Assembly (NCBI GenBank): GCA_002791545.1
Contig: PFXG01000069.1
Coordinates: 1-36,499, forward strand
Source of the DNA: Zetaproteobacteria bacterium CG_4_9_14_3_um_filter_49_83
GTDB taxonomy: Bacteria > Pseudomonadota > Zetaproteobacteria > Mariprofundales > Mariprofundaceae
Length of the DNA: 36,499 nucleotides
Direction: 5' to 3'
The notes under the pieces are model-generated. The model saw nothing but the letters and a program-made list of their open reading frames with translations, did no database searches and was not told the DNA's origin. Made by a program: the position numbers and the translations under genes. This document shows, piece after piece, positions 3,576-35,781 of this stretch. Position 1 is the stretch's first letter. Each line of letters begins with the position of its first letter.

Positions 3576-6500
3576 TTATAATCCATACAGACCAAGCTGA
3601 TCCGAATATCCGTATTCCTGATTCTCTCGATCAACAAAGCTCAACTCGCCATAGCGAAGTGAAACAGATTTCTCATCGCTATCACGAGCTTCCGCCTGCT
3701 GGGTTAATAACTGTTTATAACTGCGGAACAGCCACAACCTGTTTTGCTCATTCTCACTGAGCTTCTGATGCGCTATTTGCAAAATGCCCTCCCTATTGAC
3801 CGGATAGCCACGATCATCTTTTTCGATAAACAAAAAGCACTCTTCATCCGGATCATACATCAAAAACAGCTTGGTTGTAGGTTCGCTTTTGCGGAATGGA
3901 TTGAGTACCTGCGGCAATGCAGTTAAATACCAGCATCCGGTCAAGTAACCCTGTAGGTTTTCCGGGCCTAAGCCTTGATAACTGGTAAGTTGCATCTCAG
4001 TTACCTTGTGCTCTAAGTCCGTCAGTGAATGCCGGAACTCCAACTTTTCTGGCTTTTGAATTCGTGGAATGGCATTGATACTTTTCGCAAGGGCATCGGT
4101 ATTGATGAGTTCGCGCAGATCATGCGTATCAAGTTGCTGCATCTCTTCATAACCCGGACGACAAAAATATTTCTGACCTGAGCGGTTACCATCTTTAATG
4201 GCTTTCCAGTTATATTGAAGCAATCCGATATTAGGGGAGACTGCCGCTCCCTCCCGGTGCCGCCGTACTCGCCCCGCCAACTGGATAATTGATCGATAAG
4301 ATGATGGCTCAACGATTGCCCAGTCGAAGTCATGGTCTCGCCCGACCTCTTCAACTGGTGTAGCCACCAAAATAAATATCACCTGTTTTGCTTTGCTATG
4401 ATCCAAATGGTTACGAATGACCGAATCGTTAAATGCCTTTGGCTCAGTACCAGCAGCTTCTTTGCGTTTGAGTATGCGATCCAGGTGTTTCTCCTGCTCA
4501 TGCCGAAGCAGCAAAACCTGTTGAGAATGGTAAGCCATCACCTTGACATCAATATCTTCAGGCCAATCACATATCATAAGGTGTCTGCTTAACGCGATAC
4601 ACGGTGGAATATTAGCCACTCGCACAACGCCAAATGAAACCTTACAACCTGTTTTCCGGTCCTGTGTATGGTGGAATTTATGCTTTGCCAGAACAGCTTG
4701 CTTAATCTTGGAAAAATACCGTTCCTGTTTGGTTAACTCGCTATCGAATTCGCACTCATCCACAATTTCCTGACATTCAACGATTTCGCCTATACGTCGG
4801 GCAGGCTGCTCTACCAATTTTGCAACACGTTTGGCAATAAACTGCCTGTGCTTTTCACGATAGGCATCGATAGCCTGCGGACTCAGTGTTTCTCCAACGG
4901 TTTCAACGCGCGTGTTGAACTCATCGATCCAGGCGCATCCGATTTGTTTATCCGCATCACGCGTTTGGCTAAACAATAGCCATCCTGCGCGGTATGCATT
5001 GAAATACCCCTCTGCCAAATCAGGAGGAATCGTTGCCGATGAAATCATCACCTTTCGACCCAGCATACCAGCCAAATGAATTAATCGGCCAATGGCAATC
5101 AGATCACTGCCGGTAAAGTCATCAACCTCATCAATCACCAAATCCGAGGACATCAAACGCAAGCTTGGTAAAATATATCTTCCTCCCCGTTTGGTTTCTG
5201 TCGCCGCCATCATGTGATCAATGGTGCAGGCAAGCACAGGAGCATAAAGAAATTTTCTATCTCGCTCCTGAGTCAGAACTGTTGCCAATCCTTCTTCAGG
5301 AATATCGCAATCGAAATGGACTTCCTCATCCAGCAATGACTGCGAAGATTCAGATCCCAGTTGTTCATCATTTAAGTTTTCGTCGGAATTCATATTTTGA
5401 TGATGAAGCTCCATAACCGCTCTGGAACCAATCAGAACGGCCAACTCGCTGCTATCAAGGCGGATACGTTCACGATATTCGTCGCCTGTTTGCAGCGTTA
5501 GCGTACGTAAACCCAGGGCAAGGATATACCGCAAGCTTTCACCATCTTTCGACAATGCCCGCATCACCTTGGCATTGGCAAATGTTTTACCGCAACCGGT
5601 ACTGGCCATATTGACGGCAAAAAAACCATAATGCGATTTGGCATGCGATTCCCGCCAGGCTTTTATCTTCTCAACCGCTTTATCCTGCCAGCGAAATGCA
5701 GAACGACTCGGCTTTTTTAATGCCTGTATATCTTCTGCTAACGGTGGCTCGCACTCAAAAGCAGGCAACAAGTGAGCTGTGCGCAAAGCATGTGTGGAAA
5801 CACCAACAAGATGTTCATCCAGTTTCTGTTTGAATTGTTTTGTTTTCCTGTCCGTATTGGCAAATAGACTTGTTGTATCCTGCCATTGCGGATCAGCACT
5901 CTGCGACGAGTAGTAATGATCACCCAACATCAGGCACAGGCGTGCATGGTGAAGCACAATGCGATAGCTACCATCATTCATGCTTTGCTCGACTAAAGGC
6001 AAACAACTTTGCAAGCGATCTGCCCACTTCTTCACCTGCTTTAACCATCTGGAAGATTGACTTAACAAGCCTTGAGGGAACTCAAAACAAGCTGCCAGTC
6101 TTTTCTGATAATCCTTTTCATCTCCCTGGTTTTCATAGCCCCACGCTTTAGTCACTCGCTTCAGAAGCTGAGCAATATCCGGTGCTGGTTCACCCAGCCA
6201 CTCCTTTCTTGTAACACTCTGATCATGTGAAAAGTTAGGCAGCCGATGATGAGAAACAATCAGCCATGAAAGTAGTTGTGCTGCCGGTGGAAGTTGATCC
6301 AAGGGCTTTTCTTCCTGCAATGCAACGATTGCTTTTAATTGCGATTCATCCAACTGACCATCAATCAACTTTTCTAACCAAGCCGAATCACCCTCTTGAT
6401 TTTGACAACTGTTTATCAACGCATGCAATATCAAACAGGAAATCCACTCATGGCGAATAGGGTCGCCCAACATAGACGATTTTTTAAGTTTTTGCTGAAA

Positions 6501-6887
6501 CAGAGCTGTCGCTTTACCCCAGTCATGAAACAAAGCTGCAAGCGCTGCAAGTGCTTTAATCAGTGGTAGGTAATGCCAGTCGTTCTCAAACTGGGTGACC
6601 ATTTTTTGCGTGCTATTCACTGGCACAATCCCCTGTTCATTAAACCTGCTTCGATTACCCACCACCCAGATCAACTCGCTGCGCGAACGGCTCCTGATCC
6701 AATGGCAGGAAACCGCTGTGCTTTTGCTCGCCGTCTGGCGCAGCATCTTTTTCACTGTGTTCAGGCCATCCTCGGTGATCACAGTCTGCCATGTGTTATC
6801 GCCAATGCGATCAGCAAAGGCATCGAGCACTCGCCGGGTTTTCTTCAGGGCATTCTTTTCGCACTGGGAGATAAACGTCACCATCAT
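3576..6887 (-). CDS. cas3: Cas2-3 fusion: adaptation subunit plus HD nuclease-helicase
   Basis: This 1103-residue protein is the type I-F hallmark fusion. Residues 1 to about 90 form the Cas2-like domain. An HD nuclease follows, with FHDWGK at 120-125 and RHEW at 145-148. The SF2 helicase has Walker A STGCGKT at 429-435, motif II DEVD at 586-589, SSAT at 616-619 and motif VI QLAGRVRRHR at 869-878. DEVD rather than DEAH is usual for I-F. It degrades Cascade-marked DNA and joins Cas1 in spacer acquisition. The start ATG overlaps the Bro-N gene stop by 4 bases (ATGA); a second ATG follows immediately. All key motifs are intact. Confidence 0.95.
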   Translation of the reverse strand: MMVTFISQCEKNALKKTRRVLDAFADRIGDNTWQTVITEDGLNTVKKMLRQTASKSTAVSCHWIRSRSRSELIWVVGNRSRFNEQGIVPVNSTQKMVTQFENDWHYLPLIKALAALAALFHDWGKATALFQQKLKKSSMLGDPIRHEWISCLILHALINSCQNQEGDSAWLEKLIDGQLDESQLKAIVALQEEKPLDQLPPAAQLLSWLIVSHHRLPNFSHDQSVTRKEWLGEPAPDIAQLLKRVTKAWGYENQGDEKDYQKRLAACFEFPQGLLSQSSRWLKQVKKWADRLQSCLPLVEQSMNDGSYRIVLHHARLCLMLGDHYYSSQSADPQWQDTTSLFANTDRKTKQFKQKLDEHLVGVSTHALRTAHLLPAFECEPPLAEDIQALKKPSRSAFRWQDKAVEKIKAWRESHAKSHYGFFAVNMASTGCGKTFANAKVMRALSKDGESLRYILALGLRTLTLQTGDEYRERIRLDSSELAVLIGSRAVMELHHQNMNSDENLNDEQLGSESSQSLLDEEVHFDCDIPEEGLATVLTQERDRKFLYAPVLACTIDHMMAATETKRGGRYILPSLRLMSSDLVIDEVDDFTGSDLIAIGRLIHLAGMLGRKVMISSATIPPDLAEGYFNAYRAGWLLFSQTRDADKQIGCAWIDEFNTRVETVGETLSPQAIDAYREKHRQFIAKRVAKLVEQPARRIGEIVECQEIVDECEFDSELTKQERYFSKIKQAVLAKHKFHHTQDRKTGCKVSFGVVRVANIPPCIALSRHLMICDWPEDIDVKVMAYHSQQVLLLRHEQEKHLDRILKRKEAAGTEPKAFNDSVIRNHLDHSKAKQVIFILVATPVEEVGRDHDFDWAIVEPSSYRSIIQLAGRVRRHREGAAVSPNIGLLQYNWKAIKDGNRSGQKYFCRPGYEEMQQLDTHDLRELINTDALAKSINAIPRIQKPEKLEFRHSLTDLEHKVTEMQLTSYQGLGPENLQGYLTGCWYLTALPQVLNPFRKSEPTTKLFLMYDPDEECFLFIEKDDRGYPVNREGILQIAHQKLSENEQNRLWLFRSYKQLLTQQAEARDSDEKSVSLRYGELSFVDRENQEYGYSDQLGLYGL

Positions 6888-7750
6888 TTGGGGTTGCCTT
6901 TATTACTCTTGATGCGCGGTTTTTTATCAGGAACCAGATAGTTTTCAGAGGTAATGACTTTTCTTCCGGTCTTTGTTTCCAGTTCCTTGCGTGCGTTATT
7001 AGCGATGCGTCCCCCGGATTTTGCCGCTATGGTGTTTTCATTCATGCCGGTCGCATCGACGCTTTCAGCGATCTGCCGGGTAGAGAGTTCGGCCAGGGCG
7101 GTGAAGATAAGCTCGGCTTCACTCATGTGGTCGCGCAGGTTCTGGCTTTTGAGGCCTTTCAGGTCTTTGTGTTGCCTGATACCGACCTCAGCCCATTCCT
7201 GATGAATGATGTTGGTGAGGATGGCGAATTCCTCGCCCTGTTTGATATCGTGTTCGGACCAGTAATCGGTGAGTTTGTTGCGGGTCTCCTGTCCGGTCAT
7301 ACGCCTTTGAATCCACTTTTCACTGCGGCCGTGCTTTTGCCAGGTGGAGCGGGCGCGATCAAGGGAGCGGGAAGGGTCGGCCATCTCCTGCATGCGTTCG
7401 TAGCCTACTTTGGCCAGCCAGAGTTTGATGGGCTCGGCCTTGGGGCTGGGTACGGACTGCACCAGCCGCAGCAGGGTTTCGGCGGTGGCAACGTCGGTAA
7501 GCCTCTGTTTGCCATCTGTGGCCGTCATCTTCAACTGGTGACAATTTGTCACCAGTTGACTGCCCTCCGCAGCCAAACGCTGTTTGAGCTTGTTCCAGTA
7601 CTTTCGTGCAGTCTGTGGATTGGATTGCCGGGTCAATACCTGCACGATATCGATCACCGAAAACCACCAGATTTCAGCTTCTTCGTCATAAATCCGGCGA
7701 ATTTTGTAATCCTCGAATAAGGCCATATCCATCTGCATACCCTCTTTCAC
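6884..7750 (-). CDS. Bro-N-family (phage antirepressor-like) protein inside the cas operon
   Basis: This 288-residue protein has an N-terminal Bro-N domain (about residues 4-110: ALFEDYKIRRIYDEE, IWWFSVIDIVQVLT, RKYWNKLKQRL, SQLVTNCHQLKM, SVPSPKAEPIKLWLA). A C-terminal part of the kind seen in chromosomal BRO proteins follows (GGRIANNARKELETKTGRKV). Bro-N domains bind DNA and are shuffled among phage antirepressors. I choose the GTG at 7750: it lies 8 bases after GGAG and overlaps the KilA-N stop as GTGA. The ATG at 7756 sits only 2 bases from that site. The gene end overlaps cas2-3 by ATGA, so it is coupled on both sides. Its role in this operon is unknown; a regulator or accessory adaptation factor is speculation. 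Confidence 0.85.
   Translation of the reverse strand: MKEGMQMDMALFEDYKIRRIYDEEAEIWWFSVIDIVQVLTRQSNPQTARKYWNKLKQRLAAEGSQLVTNCHQLKMTATDGKQRLTDVATAETLLRLVQSVPSPKAEPIKLWLAKVGYERMQEMADPSRSLDRARSTWQKHGRSEKWIQRRMTGQETRNKLTDYWSEHDIKQGEEFAILTNIIHQEWAEVGIRQHKDLKGLKSQNLRDHMSEAELIFTALAELSTRQIAESVDATGMNENTIAAKSGGRIANNARKELETKTGRKVITSENYLVPDKKPRIKSNKGNPK
7531..7559. repeat. Perfect 29-bp palindrome inside the Bro-N gene
   Basis: Arm TCAACTGGTGACAA at 7531-7544, one centre base at 7545, and the exact complementary arm TTGTCACCAGTTGA at 7546-7559. It encodes the motif QLVTNCHQL (about residues 65-73) of the Bro-N protein. The symmetry is in codon phase: the Gln and Leu codons of one side pair with the Leu and Gln codons of the other, Val with His, Thr with Cys. 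The opposite strand therefore reads QLVTICHQL. No U-tract follows in the direction of transcription. It could act as an operator or an RNA hairpin. Confidence 0.9.
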
Positions 7751-8052
7751 TGGCATCTCTCCTTGATCATGCTTCCGGTTTTGGCAATTCGCTCTTTCAC
7801 GCTGAGTTTATAGCTGTTCAGACCCGCCTGACTTTTAATTGTGGCGAATTCGCCATAATTAAAATCAGGATTGTGTACCGACTCCCATATCCCCAGAAAT
7901 TCGACTGTATTACGATTGCGCAACCAATCGGAGATAAAGAAATCACCATCCTTGGCTTTGAGCATGTCCGTCAACGAGATGTAATCCTGATGGCCGGAAG
8001 TCATGATTCTTATTTCAGCGTCCAGCACCTCGATTTTCTTTACCTTGCTCAT
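7747..8052 (-). CDS. Short KilA-N domain protein (C-terminal half missing)
   Basis: This 101-residue protein matches the start of chromosomal KilA-N proteins: HQDYISLTDML at 21-31, FISDWLRNRNTVEFLGIWE at 39-57, HNPDFNYGEFATIKSQAGLNSY at 60-81. Full family members run to about 280 residues and continue with an ATGAIG...GRYGGTYAH region. Here the match fades after KERIAKTGS and the protein stops at ERCQ. The ATG at 8052 overlaps the upstream small gene by ATGA and has AGGAG 7 bases ahead; the stop overlaps the Bro-N GTG. It is either a truncated remnant or a deliberately small DNA-binding protein. Intact ribosome sites and overlaps favour translation. Confidence 0.75.
   Translation of the reverse strand: MSKVKKIEVLDAEIRIMTSGHQDYISLTDMLKAKDGDFFISDWLRNRNTVEFLGIWESVHNPDFNYGEFATIKSQAGLNSYKLSVKERIAKTGSMIKERCQ
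7827..7869. repeat. 43-base near-perfect palindrome inside the KilA-N gene
   Basis: The core TGGCGAATTCGCCA (7842-7855) is fully palindromic. Beyond one G/T mismatch (7841/7856), eight more bases pair (7833-7840 with 7857-7864). After a single unpaired C at 7832, five more pair (7827-7831 with 7865-7869). It encodes the hallmark segment PDFNYGEFATIKSQ of the KilA-N protein (about residues 62-75) and is in codon phase, so the opposite strand reads FNCGEFAIIK. A second hairpin, CGATTG-N6-CAATCG at 7913-7930, covers the DWLRNR motif of the same gene. Confidence 0.88.
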
Positions 8053-8165
8053 GTCACGCTCCTGCGCAGATTCCGATTAGCTTCTTTAGTCAACCGTTGC
8101 TTCTGCTTATTCCAGCATTTCCAGGCAGGCTGATCCCCTTCAAACAAAGTCATATTTGCTTTCAT
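8049..8165 (-). CDS. Small unknown protein (38 aa) between cas1 and KilA-N gene
   Basis: A short open frame starts at the base after the cas1 stop and encodes MKANMTLFEGDQPAWKCWNK followed by a basic tail QKQRLTKEANRNLRRSVT. An AGGAG site lies 8-9 bases before its ATG, within the end of cas1. It ends with an ATGA overlap onto the KilA-N start. The tight packing argues that it is translated. The protein is basic, with two Trp and one Cys near the middle, and no signal peptide or membrane segment. I do not recognise a family. It may be a small DNA/RNA-binding or partner protein, or only a coupling peptide. Confidence 0.55.
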   Translation of the reverse strand: MKANMTLFEGDQPAWKCWNKQKQRLTKEANRNLRRSVT

Positions 8166-9119
8166 TTAATCTTTCTCCTGCATTAACGCCAATGCCTTAA
8201 CCTGATCAAACATCACATCCAGTGCTTTATGATCGGTGAAAGCCTGCAAACACTGCTGGCGAAACTCCTGCTCGGTCGCATTCTCTTTTGCACAGATAAA
8301 TGCCCACGGCAATACAATGGCATCTTTGATCAGGTCGGCCACATCAAAGACCAGTGCTCCCCTGCGTGTTTTGCCATGCATCACCGCAAAGCCGTGCGGA
8401 ATACCCAGTACCCAGAGCGTGGTGGCAGCCATGCCATAAGCGAGGTAGTTGCCGTGATTGAGAAAGCCGTTGGCTTTATCGGTTGCCTCATGTTCCCGAG
8501 TAAATGATTTCATATTCGTTGAGCGTGCTGCGAATTTATAGAGCTGTTTGGTCAACTGCGCTTCTGCCGTCAGCAAATCAACGGTTTTCATGGCCCGATC
8601 AATGTTTTTCCGACTTGAATCCAGCGCAGTGGATAAGGCAAGATCACCCATATCAAAACCTGCCACCTTCAGATCTCGGTCTTTAGCCCAGACTTTGCGC
8701 AGATAATCCAGCCGGGCATGTTGCAGTGTTTTTGCTGCATTCAGTCGTTGCTCATCATCAAACCAGAAGCCCAGCCACCCTTGCAGATACTCTGTTGGCC
8801 GATACTCACTTTGGGGTGTGAACCACTCAATGGCGTTGCCCATGTAGAGCGGTGTGCCTCCGCCGCCGCAAAATCCGATAAGCACCCCGGCCTGAGCTAA
8901 CATGCGCACAGCTGCCTGAGTAATGGAGGTGCCATTTCCCAACAGAATGACGGTGGTATTGGCTATAGGGATGTTGAAGAACTGCTTCTCTTTCTTGGCT
9001 TCGGTGAGATAGAGAACTCGCCCATCTTTCTGCATCACCCGGCAATGCTCCAACAGATACAGATTGGCCCGCTTGGAGTGCAGAATTGTTTTCAAATCAC
9101 TTGGCGATAAATCTTTCAT
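8166..9119 (-). CDS. cas1: Cas1, type I-F spacer-integration endonuclease
   Basis: This 317-residue Cas1 of the I-F subtype inserts spacers with the Cas2 part of Cas2-3. The start SPSDLKTILHSKRANLYLLE and the segments IPIANTTVILLGNGTSITQAA and GVLIGFCGGGGTP are diagnostic of I-F Cas1. Likely metal ligands are Glu186, His248 and Asp262, at the spacing of the Pseudomonas enzyme (191/254/268). The protein is therefore probably active. The ATG at 9119 has only a weak upstream site. In standard I-F loci the next gene is cas2-3; here about 1.3 kb with three inserted genes intervenes. Confidence 0.95.
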   Translation of the reverse strand: MKDLSPSDLKTILHSKRANLYLLEHCRVMQKDGRVLYLTEAKKEKQFFNIPIANTTVILLGNGTSITQAAVRMLAQAGVLIGFCGGGGTPLYMGNAIEWFTPQSEYRPTEYLQGWLGFWFDDEQRLNAAKTLQHARLDYLRKVWAKDRDLKVAGFDMGDLALSTALDSSRKNIDRAMKTVDLLTAEAQLTKQLYKFAARSTNMKSFTREHEATDKANGFLNHGNYLAYGMAATTLWVLGIPHGFAVMHGKTRRGALVFDVADLIKDAIVLPWAFICAKENATEQEFRQQCLQAFTDHKALDVMFDQVKALALMQEKD

Positions 9120-9138: not shown

Positions 9139-9333
9139 TCACCTCGTTGACACACAAAGCCGATAGGCTATTTTTTCACCTTGTGGTCGGCGGTCATCCC
9201 GCGTCAGCGCCTTGGTCTCCACGCCGTAAAGCGCTGCCGGATCATTCTCCAGCATCACCCGCTCGCCGCACAGCTGCACAATCGAGCCTTGGATTCGAGT
9301 TGACTGAATAATCAGACTTTGTCCGTTAGCCAT
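9139..9333 (-). pseudogene. ORF6N-domain fragment (64 aa) upstream of cas1
   Basis: The 64-codon frame contains an ORF6N start: IQGSIVQLCGERVMLENDPA then ALYGVETKAL at about residues 14-43, the diagnostic motif of this phage-regulator domain. Full ORF6N domains continue with a K/R-N...RFP.DFMFQL segment. Here the similarity breaks after KALT and an unrelated tail RDDRRPQGEKIAYRLCVSTR ends 19 bases before cas1. Other frames do not restore the match, so this looks like a recombination scar rather than one frameshift. The ribosome site is weak. It may be a remnant or a mini-protein leading the cas1 transcript. Confidence 0.65.
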
Positions 9334-34828: not shown

Positions 34829-35734
34829 ATGCCTAAGCCATTACAGACACCCTCATTAAAAGCACTTCGAGCCTTTGAAGTGGCAGGCAGACTACTGAAT
34901 CAGCGCAAGGCAGCCGACGTACTATGTGTCACACCTTCGGCCCTGAGTCACCAAATTCGCGCCCTTGAAGAATATCTGGGTTTAGCTTTATTTATTCGCT
35001 TACCCAAAGGACTGAAACTCACCGCAGCGGGCAGCAAATTATTACCCCAATTGACGCTTGCTTTCGACGGCATTGATCAGGCTATTGATTCGTTACAGCA
35101 GGATCAGCGCAATAAAATACTTACCGTCAGCATGCTCTCTACGTTTGCCATGCGCTGGTTTATTCCGAGACTATATCGTTTTCGCCTGCTTCATCCGGAT
35201 ATTGAAGTGCGCATTTCCACCTCGATTGAACTGGTGGATTTCAACAAGGAGGATATCGATTGCGCCATCCGTTCCGGTCAGGGCACCTGGCGCGGCACGC
35301 AATCGCTGAGGCTACTTGACGAACAATTCGCCCCTGTTTGCAGCCCCGCCCTAATCAGCAGCGAACAACCACTTTCCACACCGCAACAACTATCAAAACA
35401 CACGTTACTGCATTCAAAATTACGGCCCAATGACTGGCAAACATGGCTCACATCCGTTGACCTGCCCAACCTTAAAGGGGCACAGCAACTGGAATTCGAA
35501 ACACGTAATTTTGCTATAGCTGCGGCCATTCGCGGCCTTGGCATTGCGATCATTGACCCGTTACTGGTCGAAGAAGAACTCAAGGATAGTCGCCTGATTC
35601 AGCCATTCAAACACACCATGCCCTCAAGCAGAGCTTATTATCTCGTCTGGCCGGAGAATCGGCCGCCTTCACCGGAACTTTCCGCCTTCCGCAGCTGGCT
35701 GCTAAGCGAAGTAGGCATCGCCGAAACTGTCTGA
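34829..35734 (+). CDS. LysR-type regulator of the GcvA branch
   Basis: This 301-residue protein has an N-terminal helix-turn-helix (about 8-65; SLKALRAFEVAGRLLNQRKAADVLCVTPSALSHQIRALEEYLGLALF) and a periplasmic-binding-like effector domain (LTVSMLSTFAMRWFIPRLYRF, VDFNKEDIDCAIRSGQGTW, FAPVCSPAL). The ALRAFEVAG and SHQIRALEEYLG signatures fit the GcvA group. It is the only clear plus-strand gene. Its target is unknown; divergence from leuCD suggests it may control leuCD or itself. The ribosome site is weak. It ends 12 bases before a strong terminator. Confidence 0.9.
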   Translation: MPKPLQTPSLKALRAFEVAGRLLNQRKAADVLCVTPSALSHQIRALEEYLGLALFIRLPKGLKLTAAGSKLLPQLTLAFDGIDQAIDSLQQDQRNKILTVSMLSTFAMRWFIPRLYRFRLLHPDIEVRISTSIELVDFNKEDIDCAIRSGQGTWRGTQSLRLLDEQFAPVCSPALISSEQPLSTPQQLSKHTLLHSKLRPNDWQTWLTSVDLPNLKGAQQLEFETRNFAIAAAIRGLGIAIIDPLLVEEELKDSRLIQPFKHTMPSSRAYYLVWPENRPPSPELSAFRSWLLSEVGIAETV

Positions 35735-35746
35735 TTCAGACAAAAA

Positions 35747-35781
35747 AAAGAGGGCAAACTCATCAAGACTTTGCCCTCTTT
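35747..35781 (+). terminator. Intrinsic terminator after the LysR gene, probably bidirectional
   Basis: AAAGAGGGCAAA at 35747-35758 is exactly complementary to TTTGCCCTCTTT at 35770-35781, with an 11-base loop. The stem is flanked by an A-run on the left and a T-run on the right, so it can end transcripts from the LysR gene and from the convergent exported-protein gene (stop at 35851). Confidence 0.93.

Follow-up and report, generated by a model that had tools for sequence, protein, structure and literature searches.

What is a long near-palindrome doing inside the coding sequence of a KilA-N gene that itself sits within a type I-F cas operon? The gene lies in a 36,499-nt stretch of DNA, here called the window (contig PFXG01000069.1 of assembly GCA_002791545.1, from Zetaproteobacteria bacterium CG_4_9_14_3_um_filter_49_83), in which the operon reads, on the minus strand, cas1, KilA-N, Bro-N, cas2-3, csy1-3. 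Around the palindrome the window holds:

3576-6887, minus strand: cas2-3 (type I-F), which follows the inserted genes and overlaps the Bro-N stop with its start.
6884-7756, minus strand: Bro-N gene (Pfam PF02498), 290 aa, apparently intact.
7486-7645, minus strand: Bro-N tract straddling the palindrome, exchanged relative to the orthologue in genome G070.
7531-7559: Bro-N-type palindrome with 14-bp arms and a 1-nt centre, at the codons for QLVTNCHQL.
7747-8052, minus strand: KilA-N gene (Pfam PF04383, E = 2e-9), 101 aa, a truncated relic.
7827-7869: KilA-N-type palindrome, CCTGA-C-TTTTAATTGTGGCGAATTCGCCATAATTAAAATCAGG, with 20 pairs, one mismatch and one bulged base.
7833-7864: inner, conserved part of the KilA-N palindrome, coding strand TTTTAATTATGGCG-AATT-CGCCACAATTAAAA.
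8057-8165, minus strand: possible Bro-N-like remnant (MTLFE...CWNKQKQRL), identified by eye without a tool score.
8166-9119, minus strand: cas1 of the type I-F operon, preceding the inserted genes.
9196-9285, minus strand: remains of an ORF6N gene upstream of cas1, a sub-threshold match to the family (E = 7e-4) that has lost the palindrome part.

The 43-base near-palindrome is present exactly as the preliminary description gave it, mismatch and bulge included, and the two outliers that it reported in adjacent genes are indeed the two strongest palindromes of the 36.5-kb window, with the Bro-N palindrome first and the KilA-N palindrome second. The best palindromes of 18 other window genes score 4-7.5 versus 13, and none of 1000 within-gene synonymous codon shuffles equalled the KilA-N palindrome, the Bro-N palindrome being likewise unmatched. 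The KilA-N palindrome is real and far beyond chance. Its inner ungapped arms (7833-7848/7849-7864) are paired at 15 of 16 positions. The outer CCTGA/TCAGG step, complete in the window, is intact at just one of 75 homologous loci in genomes, which keep on average 2.6 of its 5 pairs, and the conserved unit is therefore the inner ∼32 bp; a long 43-bp unit is ruled out, since its outer five pairs are not kept among homologs. The window copy is the only one in its host genome, where a search allowing up to three mismatches found no other. A further strong imperfect palindrome in the window, at 35747-35781 (AAAGAGGGCAAACTCAT/AAGACTTTGCCCTCTTT), is probably a terminator after the gene at 34829-35734.

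KilA-N homologs from three sources were aligned on the motif: the class to which the window genome belongs, 80 genome contigs covering many phyla, and 80 viral contigs. The same position is palindromic but differs in sequence across 125 KilA-N sequences, which come from many phyla and include phages and archaea: there are 33 distinct left arms, 17 of them perfectly paired, and among the compared homologs essentially all are palindromic at the motif, with only L164 clearly lacking a palindrome. Across 58 distinct 20-base cores, 353 of the 406 cells at pairs 4-10 from the centre are paired, versus 203.5 ± 10.8 when arms are re-paired, 192 ± 7.6 under protein-preserving codon randomisation and 86-146 when the arms are slid; these cells count sequences rather than independent events, the number of distinct arm types being itself large. 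Positions 1-3 and 11-16 show no added covariation and are constant or set by the protein. Residues shift together with the arms (NYGEFATI, NSIEFDGI, KLVEFDQF, NLVELHQI), and the palindrome types include:

AATTATGGCGAATTCGCCATAATT, coding for NYGEFAII.
AATTCCATCGAATTCGATGGAATT, coding for NSIEFDGI.
AAACTGGTCGAATTCGACCAGTTT, coding for KLVEFDQF.
AATGTTACCGAATTCGGTAACATT, coding for NVTEFGNI.
AATTTGGTGGAATTACACCAAATT, coding for NLVELHQI.

Along the whole KilA-N gene, codon choice is conserved above background mainly at the palindrome codons (GGC 60/60, GCC 61/61, ATA 30/30, ATT 85/87), the other peaks being few and falling on six-fold serine and leucine codons. Protein constraint alone as the cause is ruled out by the synonymous nulls, both shuffles and codon randomisation. 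The preliminary description had proposed a covariation test across homologs and had named loss of pairing with retention of the protein motif as the outcome that would count against it; what we find is the opposite, in that pairing is kept while the KilA-N motif changes, and the same is true of Bro-N, RhuM and ORF6N. Because the arms change together across distant microbes, even where this changes the protein, we conclude that these genes carry a hidden DNA site within their coding sequence, one that is probably used in their spread and exchange. At one locus (L029:671-1042), an intact KilA-N gene has upstream of it an array of KilA-N fragments, each with a different palindrome.

Bro-N homologs of the class have a covarying palindrome at the LVTNCHQLK position, and the motif itself varies along with it (EGNETVTNCNRLK, EGSEVYDKIVRLK, LDSYWGTNCTPLG, ENNQLVSATNQLK). 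Many ORF6N genes (L351-L380) are palindromic at RSQFATS, again with covariation; in one of them (L351) a second, similar palindrome is found ∼300 bp upstream. The RhuM palindrome keeps to a single register close to the beginning of the Pfam domain; its forms include CCGGAAATTCCGG, GTGCAAATTTTGCAC, ACCGAGGAATCCTCGGT and TCAACCATTGGTTGA, and 18 of 30 loci score at least 9, nearly all in this register, versus 0 of 180 background windows, some of the other loci apparently having been read on the wrong strand. RhuM genes L381-L410 have six or more unrelated core sequences at this one register. Genes of the four families repeatedly adjoin each other, in the window and in five other genomes (G021, G031, G061, G070, G076). 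The shared design that had been claimed for the KilA-N and Bro-N palindromes thus holds, both covarying at their own signature motifs; the shared function claimed with it is supported in so far as pairing is kept in all four families, and its nature we can only infer.

Is the CRISPR setting part of the answer? The window gene is a member of the KilA-N family, scoring 37.6 bits against PF04383 (curated cut-off 23.8), and covers only profile positions 7-59 of 107. Its homology to intact relatives of ∼272 aa reaches about codon 90, and with an ORF of 101 aa it is therefore a truncated copy. The last codons of the ORF (RIAKTGSMIKERCQ) match the Bro-N leader of G070, a genome of the same family as the window genome, and the ORF therefore consists of a 5′ fragment that continues into older sequence; no KilA-N match was found in G070, where the locus reads cas1, Bro-N, cas3 and the Bro-N orthologue is 92% identical to the window gene. 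The window KilA-N copy, lying between cas1 and cas2-3, is what remains of a truncated element in decay, and the cas1 neighbourhood looks like a landing zone, with an ORF6N remnant on one side of cas1 and a possible second Bro-N remnant on the other. Among 73 flanking proteins of KilA-N homologs that were scanned, restriction-modification proteins are commonest and the remainder are varied. The link to the cas operon implied by the preliminary description did not survive this comparison: with neighbours that are mostly restriction-modification and unrelated genes, and with a truncated copy in the window, a CRISPR-Cas-specific role is ruled out, and the CRISPR context of the gene looks incidental.

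The palindrome also occurs without the gene. The consensus TTTTAA-N6-CGAATTCG-N6-TTAAAA, used as a search pattern, is found in 67 stretches of the viral contigs; in these and other loci together, 92 matches lie inside KilA-N sequence and 28 outside, and nearly all of the latter have variable arms that are still complementary. Most free-standing palindromes are intergenic, some lie in frame within unrelated ORFs (L210, L188, L234), and an identical palindrome is present in two non-homologous surroundings, on Alteromonas plasmids and in genome G375. The pattern is rare and specific and is no high-copy repeat: it occurs in 13 of 399 genomes with at most two copies in each, and a reversed-pattern control gave 0 matches. 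A search for 20 palindrome types in 5,426 E. coli genomes gave none. Bro-N-type cores are likewise free-standing in viral contigs. In four viral contigs (L256, L276, L284, L321) such Bro-N-type palindromes stand in tandem, ∼57–60 bp apart, and at L242:3751-3812 a free-standing KilA-N-type palindrome lies 15 bp from a Bro-N-type one, outside either gene. Where free-standing palindromes lie near KilA-N genes (L053, L050, L012), their arms are other than those of the neighbouring gene, with none matching, so that matched reader-site pairs in trans are not seen. An empty site for the free-standing palindromes was sought and none was found; the argument for their mobility is thus their dispersal.

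Signs of exchange surround the palindrome. When the window Bro-N gene is compared with its G070 orthologue at the same locus, a tract of ∼160 bp (−100 to +60 of the palindrome) is ∼67% identical and the remainder ∼93%; in a fixed test interval of 170 bp, slightly wider than the tract, there are 54 differences, versus 57 in 694 bp elsewhere (Fisher p = 7.6e-14), and the differences between the arms are compensatory. Exchanged tracts around the palindrome are seen also in two KilA-N pairs (L097/L140 and L130/L139) that were selected for differing palindromes. It should be noted that the centring of the tracts is only modest evidence, because the KilA-N pairs were preselected and the tract roughly coincides with the DNA-binding domain.

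The gene as a whole inserts alone and ORF-precisely into operons. A mod-res operon without an insert, mod and res overlapping (...AAATAATGG...), is found on Aminobacter and Sinorhizobium plasmids (L414, L415), and in L005, L010, L011 and L061 only a KilA-N ORF lies between mod and res, starting inside the end of mod or just beyond it and stopping at the start of res with the translational overlap kept. This is a lone insertion at a defined place, with the empty site found elsewhere, as in homing genes. The filled and empty sites differ by the ORF alone, with none of the terminal inverted repeats or transposase of a transposable element, and by eye the flanks show no conserved sequence. The insert of L061 carries the ribosome-binding and start region twice, once at either end. 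Closed ORFs of <255 aa make up 22 of the 80 genome loci, and such shortening in over a quarter of copies is as expected of decaying selfish genes. Judging from these loci, lone insertion and decay are the life cycle of a selfish single gene, restriction-modification loci being prominent among its neighbours.

A full-length model of the KilA-N family (49 sequences, pLDDT 91.5) places the palindrome-coded residues in a predicted helix (66-75) between the HTH-like helices and a beta hairpin, the C-terminal half being helical; a Bro-N structure predicted from a single sequence was of too poor a quality for use. The best PDB fold matches are DdrC entries of Deinococcus radiodurans (Foldseek probability 1.0), a borderline match at E = 1.1e-3 and a TM of 0.3. 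DdrC binds single- and double-stranded DNA and anneals strands, with no sequence specificity in vitro (PMC5436757). It resembles the KilA-N protein as the closest solved fold, DNA binding and strand annealing being features of DdrC itself, but is a repair protein without reported sequence specificity. No nuclease or transposase domain was recognised in the KilA-N protein.

All four families, then, have a selected, covarying palindrome whose place is constant within the family, accompanied by free copies and exchange tracts. The explanation that we favour, while holding it a little short of an even call, is that the palindrome is a DNA-level cis-acting site built into single-gene, horizontally moving elements (KilA-N, Bro-N, ORF6N and RhuM). 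The encoded DNA-binding protein, with its DdrC-like fold, would recognise the palindrome, whether duplex or folded from a single strand, and this putative binding would promote gene conversion and insertion; the site and its putative reader would always travel together, both being in one gene. The window would hold two elements of this kind side by side, a decayed KilA-N and an apparently intact Bro-N. A self-read site has against it that no matched reader-site pairs are seen in trans, that DdrC is without sequence specificity in vitro and that the fold match is borderline, and a conversion site has against it that ordinary domain swapping under selection could centre the tracts, since these roughly coincide with the DNA-binding domain. 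It is possible, and we put it forward still more tentatively, that the four families form one class of selfish element in which the DNA coding for the domain is the DNA that the domain reads and in which the site drives conversion and spread.

Dimeric DNA-binding proteins commonly have palindromic operators, and the palindrome might instead be an autoregulatory operator, at which the protein represses or stops transcription of its own gene; the free copies would be other operators, and the arms would vary as binding specificity drifts together with the protein. The near-strict Watson-Crick pairing, the presence of phage regulators in these families and the mostly intergenic position of the free copies all agree with this. 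The palindrome, however, lies ∼190 bp inside the coding sequence and not at a promoter, that of the window is the only copy in its own genome, the free copies near a KilA-N gene have other arms, and spread, decay and centred exchange would require further explanation; we consider an operator unlikely, if a serious contender. An RNA or antisense-RNA hairpin governing translation or stability of the gene is improbable. Antirepressor genes of P1 and P22 are under antisense RNA control, and compensatory change with a tolerant centre (positions 1-3, loop-like and without covariation) is a classic sign of a stem, but the G:U tolerance on the transcribed strand that marks a conserved RNA stem is missing despite the compensatory change: the sense-strand mismatches among distinct cores are 9 GT versus 26 AC and 18 others, and GGT and GCT never occur although G:U pairing would survive. 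This near absence of sense G:T pairs argues against a sense mRNA hairpin, whereas a duplex site or an other-strand hairpin (RNA or single-stranded DNA) fits, because sense A:C is G:U there. There is also no Rfam match, and free-standing copies exist without the gene.

Bacteria are known to repair quasi-palindromes, and such repair would yield perfect arms whatever their sequence, so that the palindromes could be a functionless by-product of correction by template switching. Such a process should affect any gene, yet the other window genes have no similar palindromes, the place is constant within each of the four families and across phyla, and conserved residues are altered while the palindrome persists, which together leave this reading very improbable. 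An independent, mobile palindromic mini-element, inserted once into an ancestral antirepressor gene and kept in the protein, would explain the free-standing ∼32-bp copies, some of them in frame inside unrelated genes (L210, L188). A palindrome-free gene is, however, almost absent (only L164 is clearly so among the compared KilA-N homologs), the core sequence is peculiar to each family and there is about one copy per genome; we give this origin only a slim chance.

A cis-acting site within a moving gene also differs from the systems that it most resembles. Rickettsia/Wolbachia palindromic elements, too, are palindromic DNA translated in frame in dispersed copies, but they are larger repeats in housekeeping genes of one lineage, whereas the KilA-N unit is ∼32 bp long, occurs in many phyla, invariably at one motif of a single gene family, and has arms that change in compensation. 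PARCELs share coding sequence with dyad symmetry and horizontal spread; they are tandem 25-residue repeats (DUF285-like) of surface proteins, for which an antirepressor link and covariation are not described (PMC2996958). Neither an insertion absent from orthologues nor tandem 25-residue repeats, the marks of RPE and PARCELs, are seen here, the KilA-N palindrome being single and at the native motif in nearly all compared homologs. Short free-standing palindromes and a gene possibly mobilising them recall REP/RAYT, but the KilA-N consensus is untagged (no GTAG/CGTC), there is no tyrosine-HUH protein, the palindrome lies in the gene itself, and there is about one copy per genome, at most two in the 399 genomes, instead of tagged high-copy palindromes with a RAYT gene. 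Homing endonuclease genes (free-standing, intronless homing) share the lone insertion, wide spread, decay and exchanged tracts around the site; unlike them, the KilA-N gene has its site inside itself, not destroyed by it, and codes for no recognised nuclease domain, none being found among the confident matches of the fold search.

No report of KilA-N palindromes was found in the open-access literature, where PARCELs came nearest; since the search covered open-access papers only, novelty is provisional. For experiments, the Bro-N gene of this window is the better target, its palindrome behaving like that of KilA-N and the gene looking intact. The "hallmark motifs" that define these common phage and bacterial families are partly imposed by a DNA palindrome. 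If self-reading is true, reader and target lie in the same bases, and specificity can change without separating them; if the protein indeed reads the gene that encodes it, such a gene would represent a novel type of selfish gene, and the wide spread and shuffled DNA-binding domains of these families would be easier to explain.
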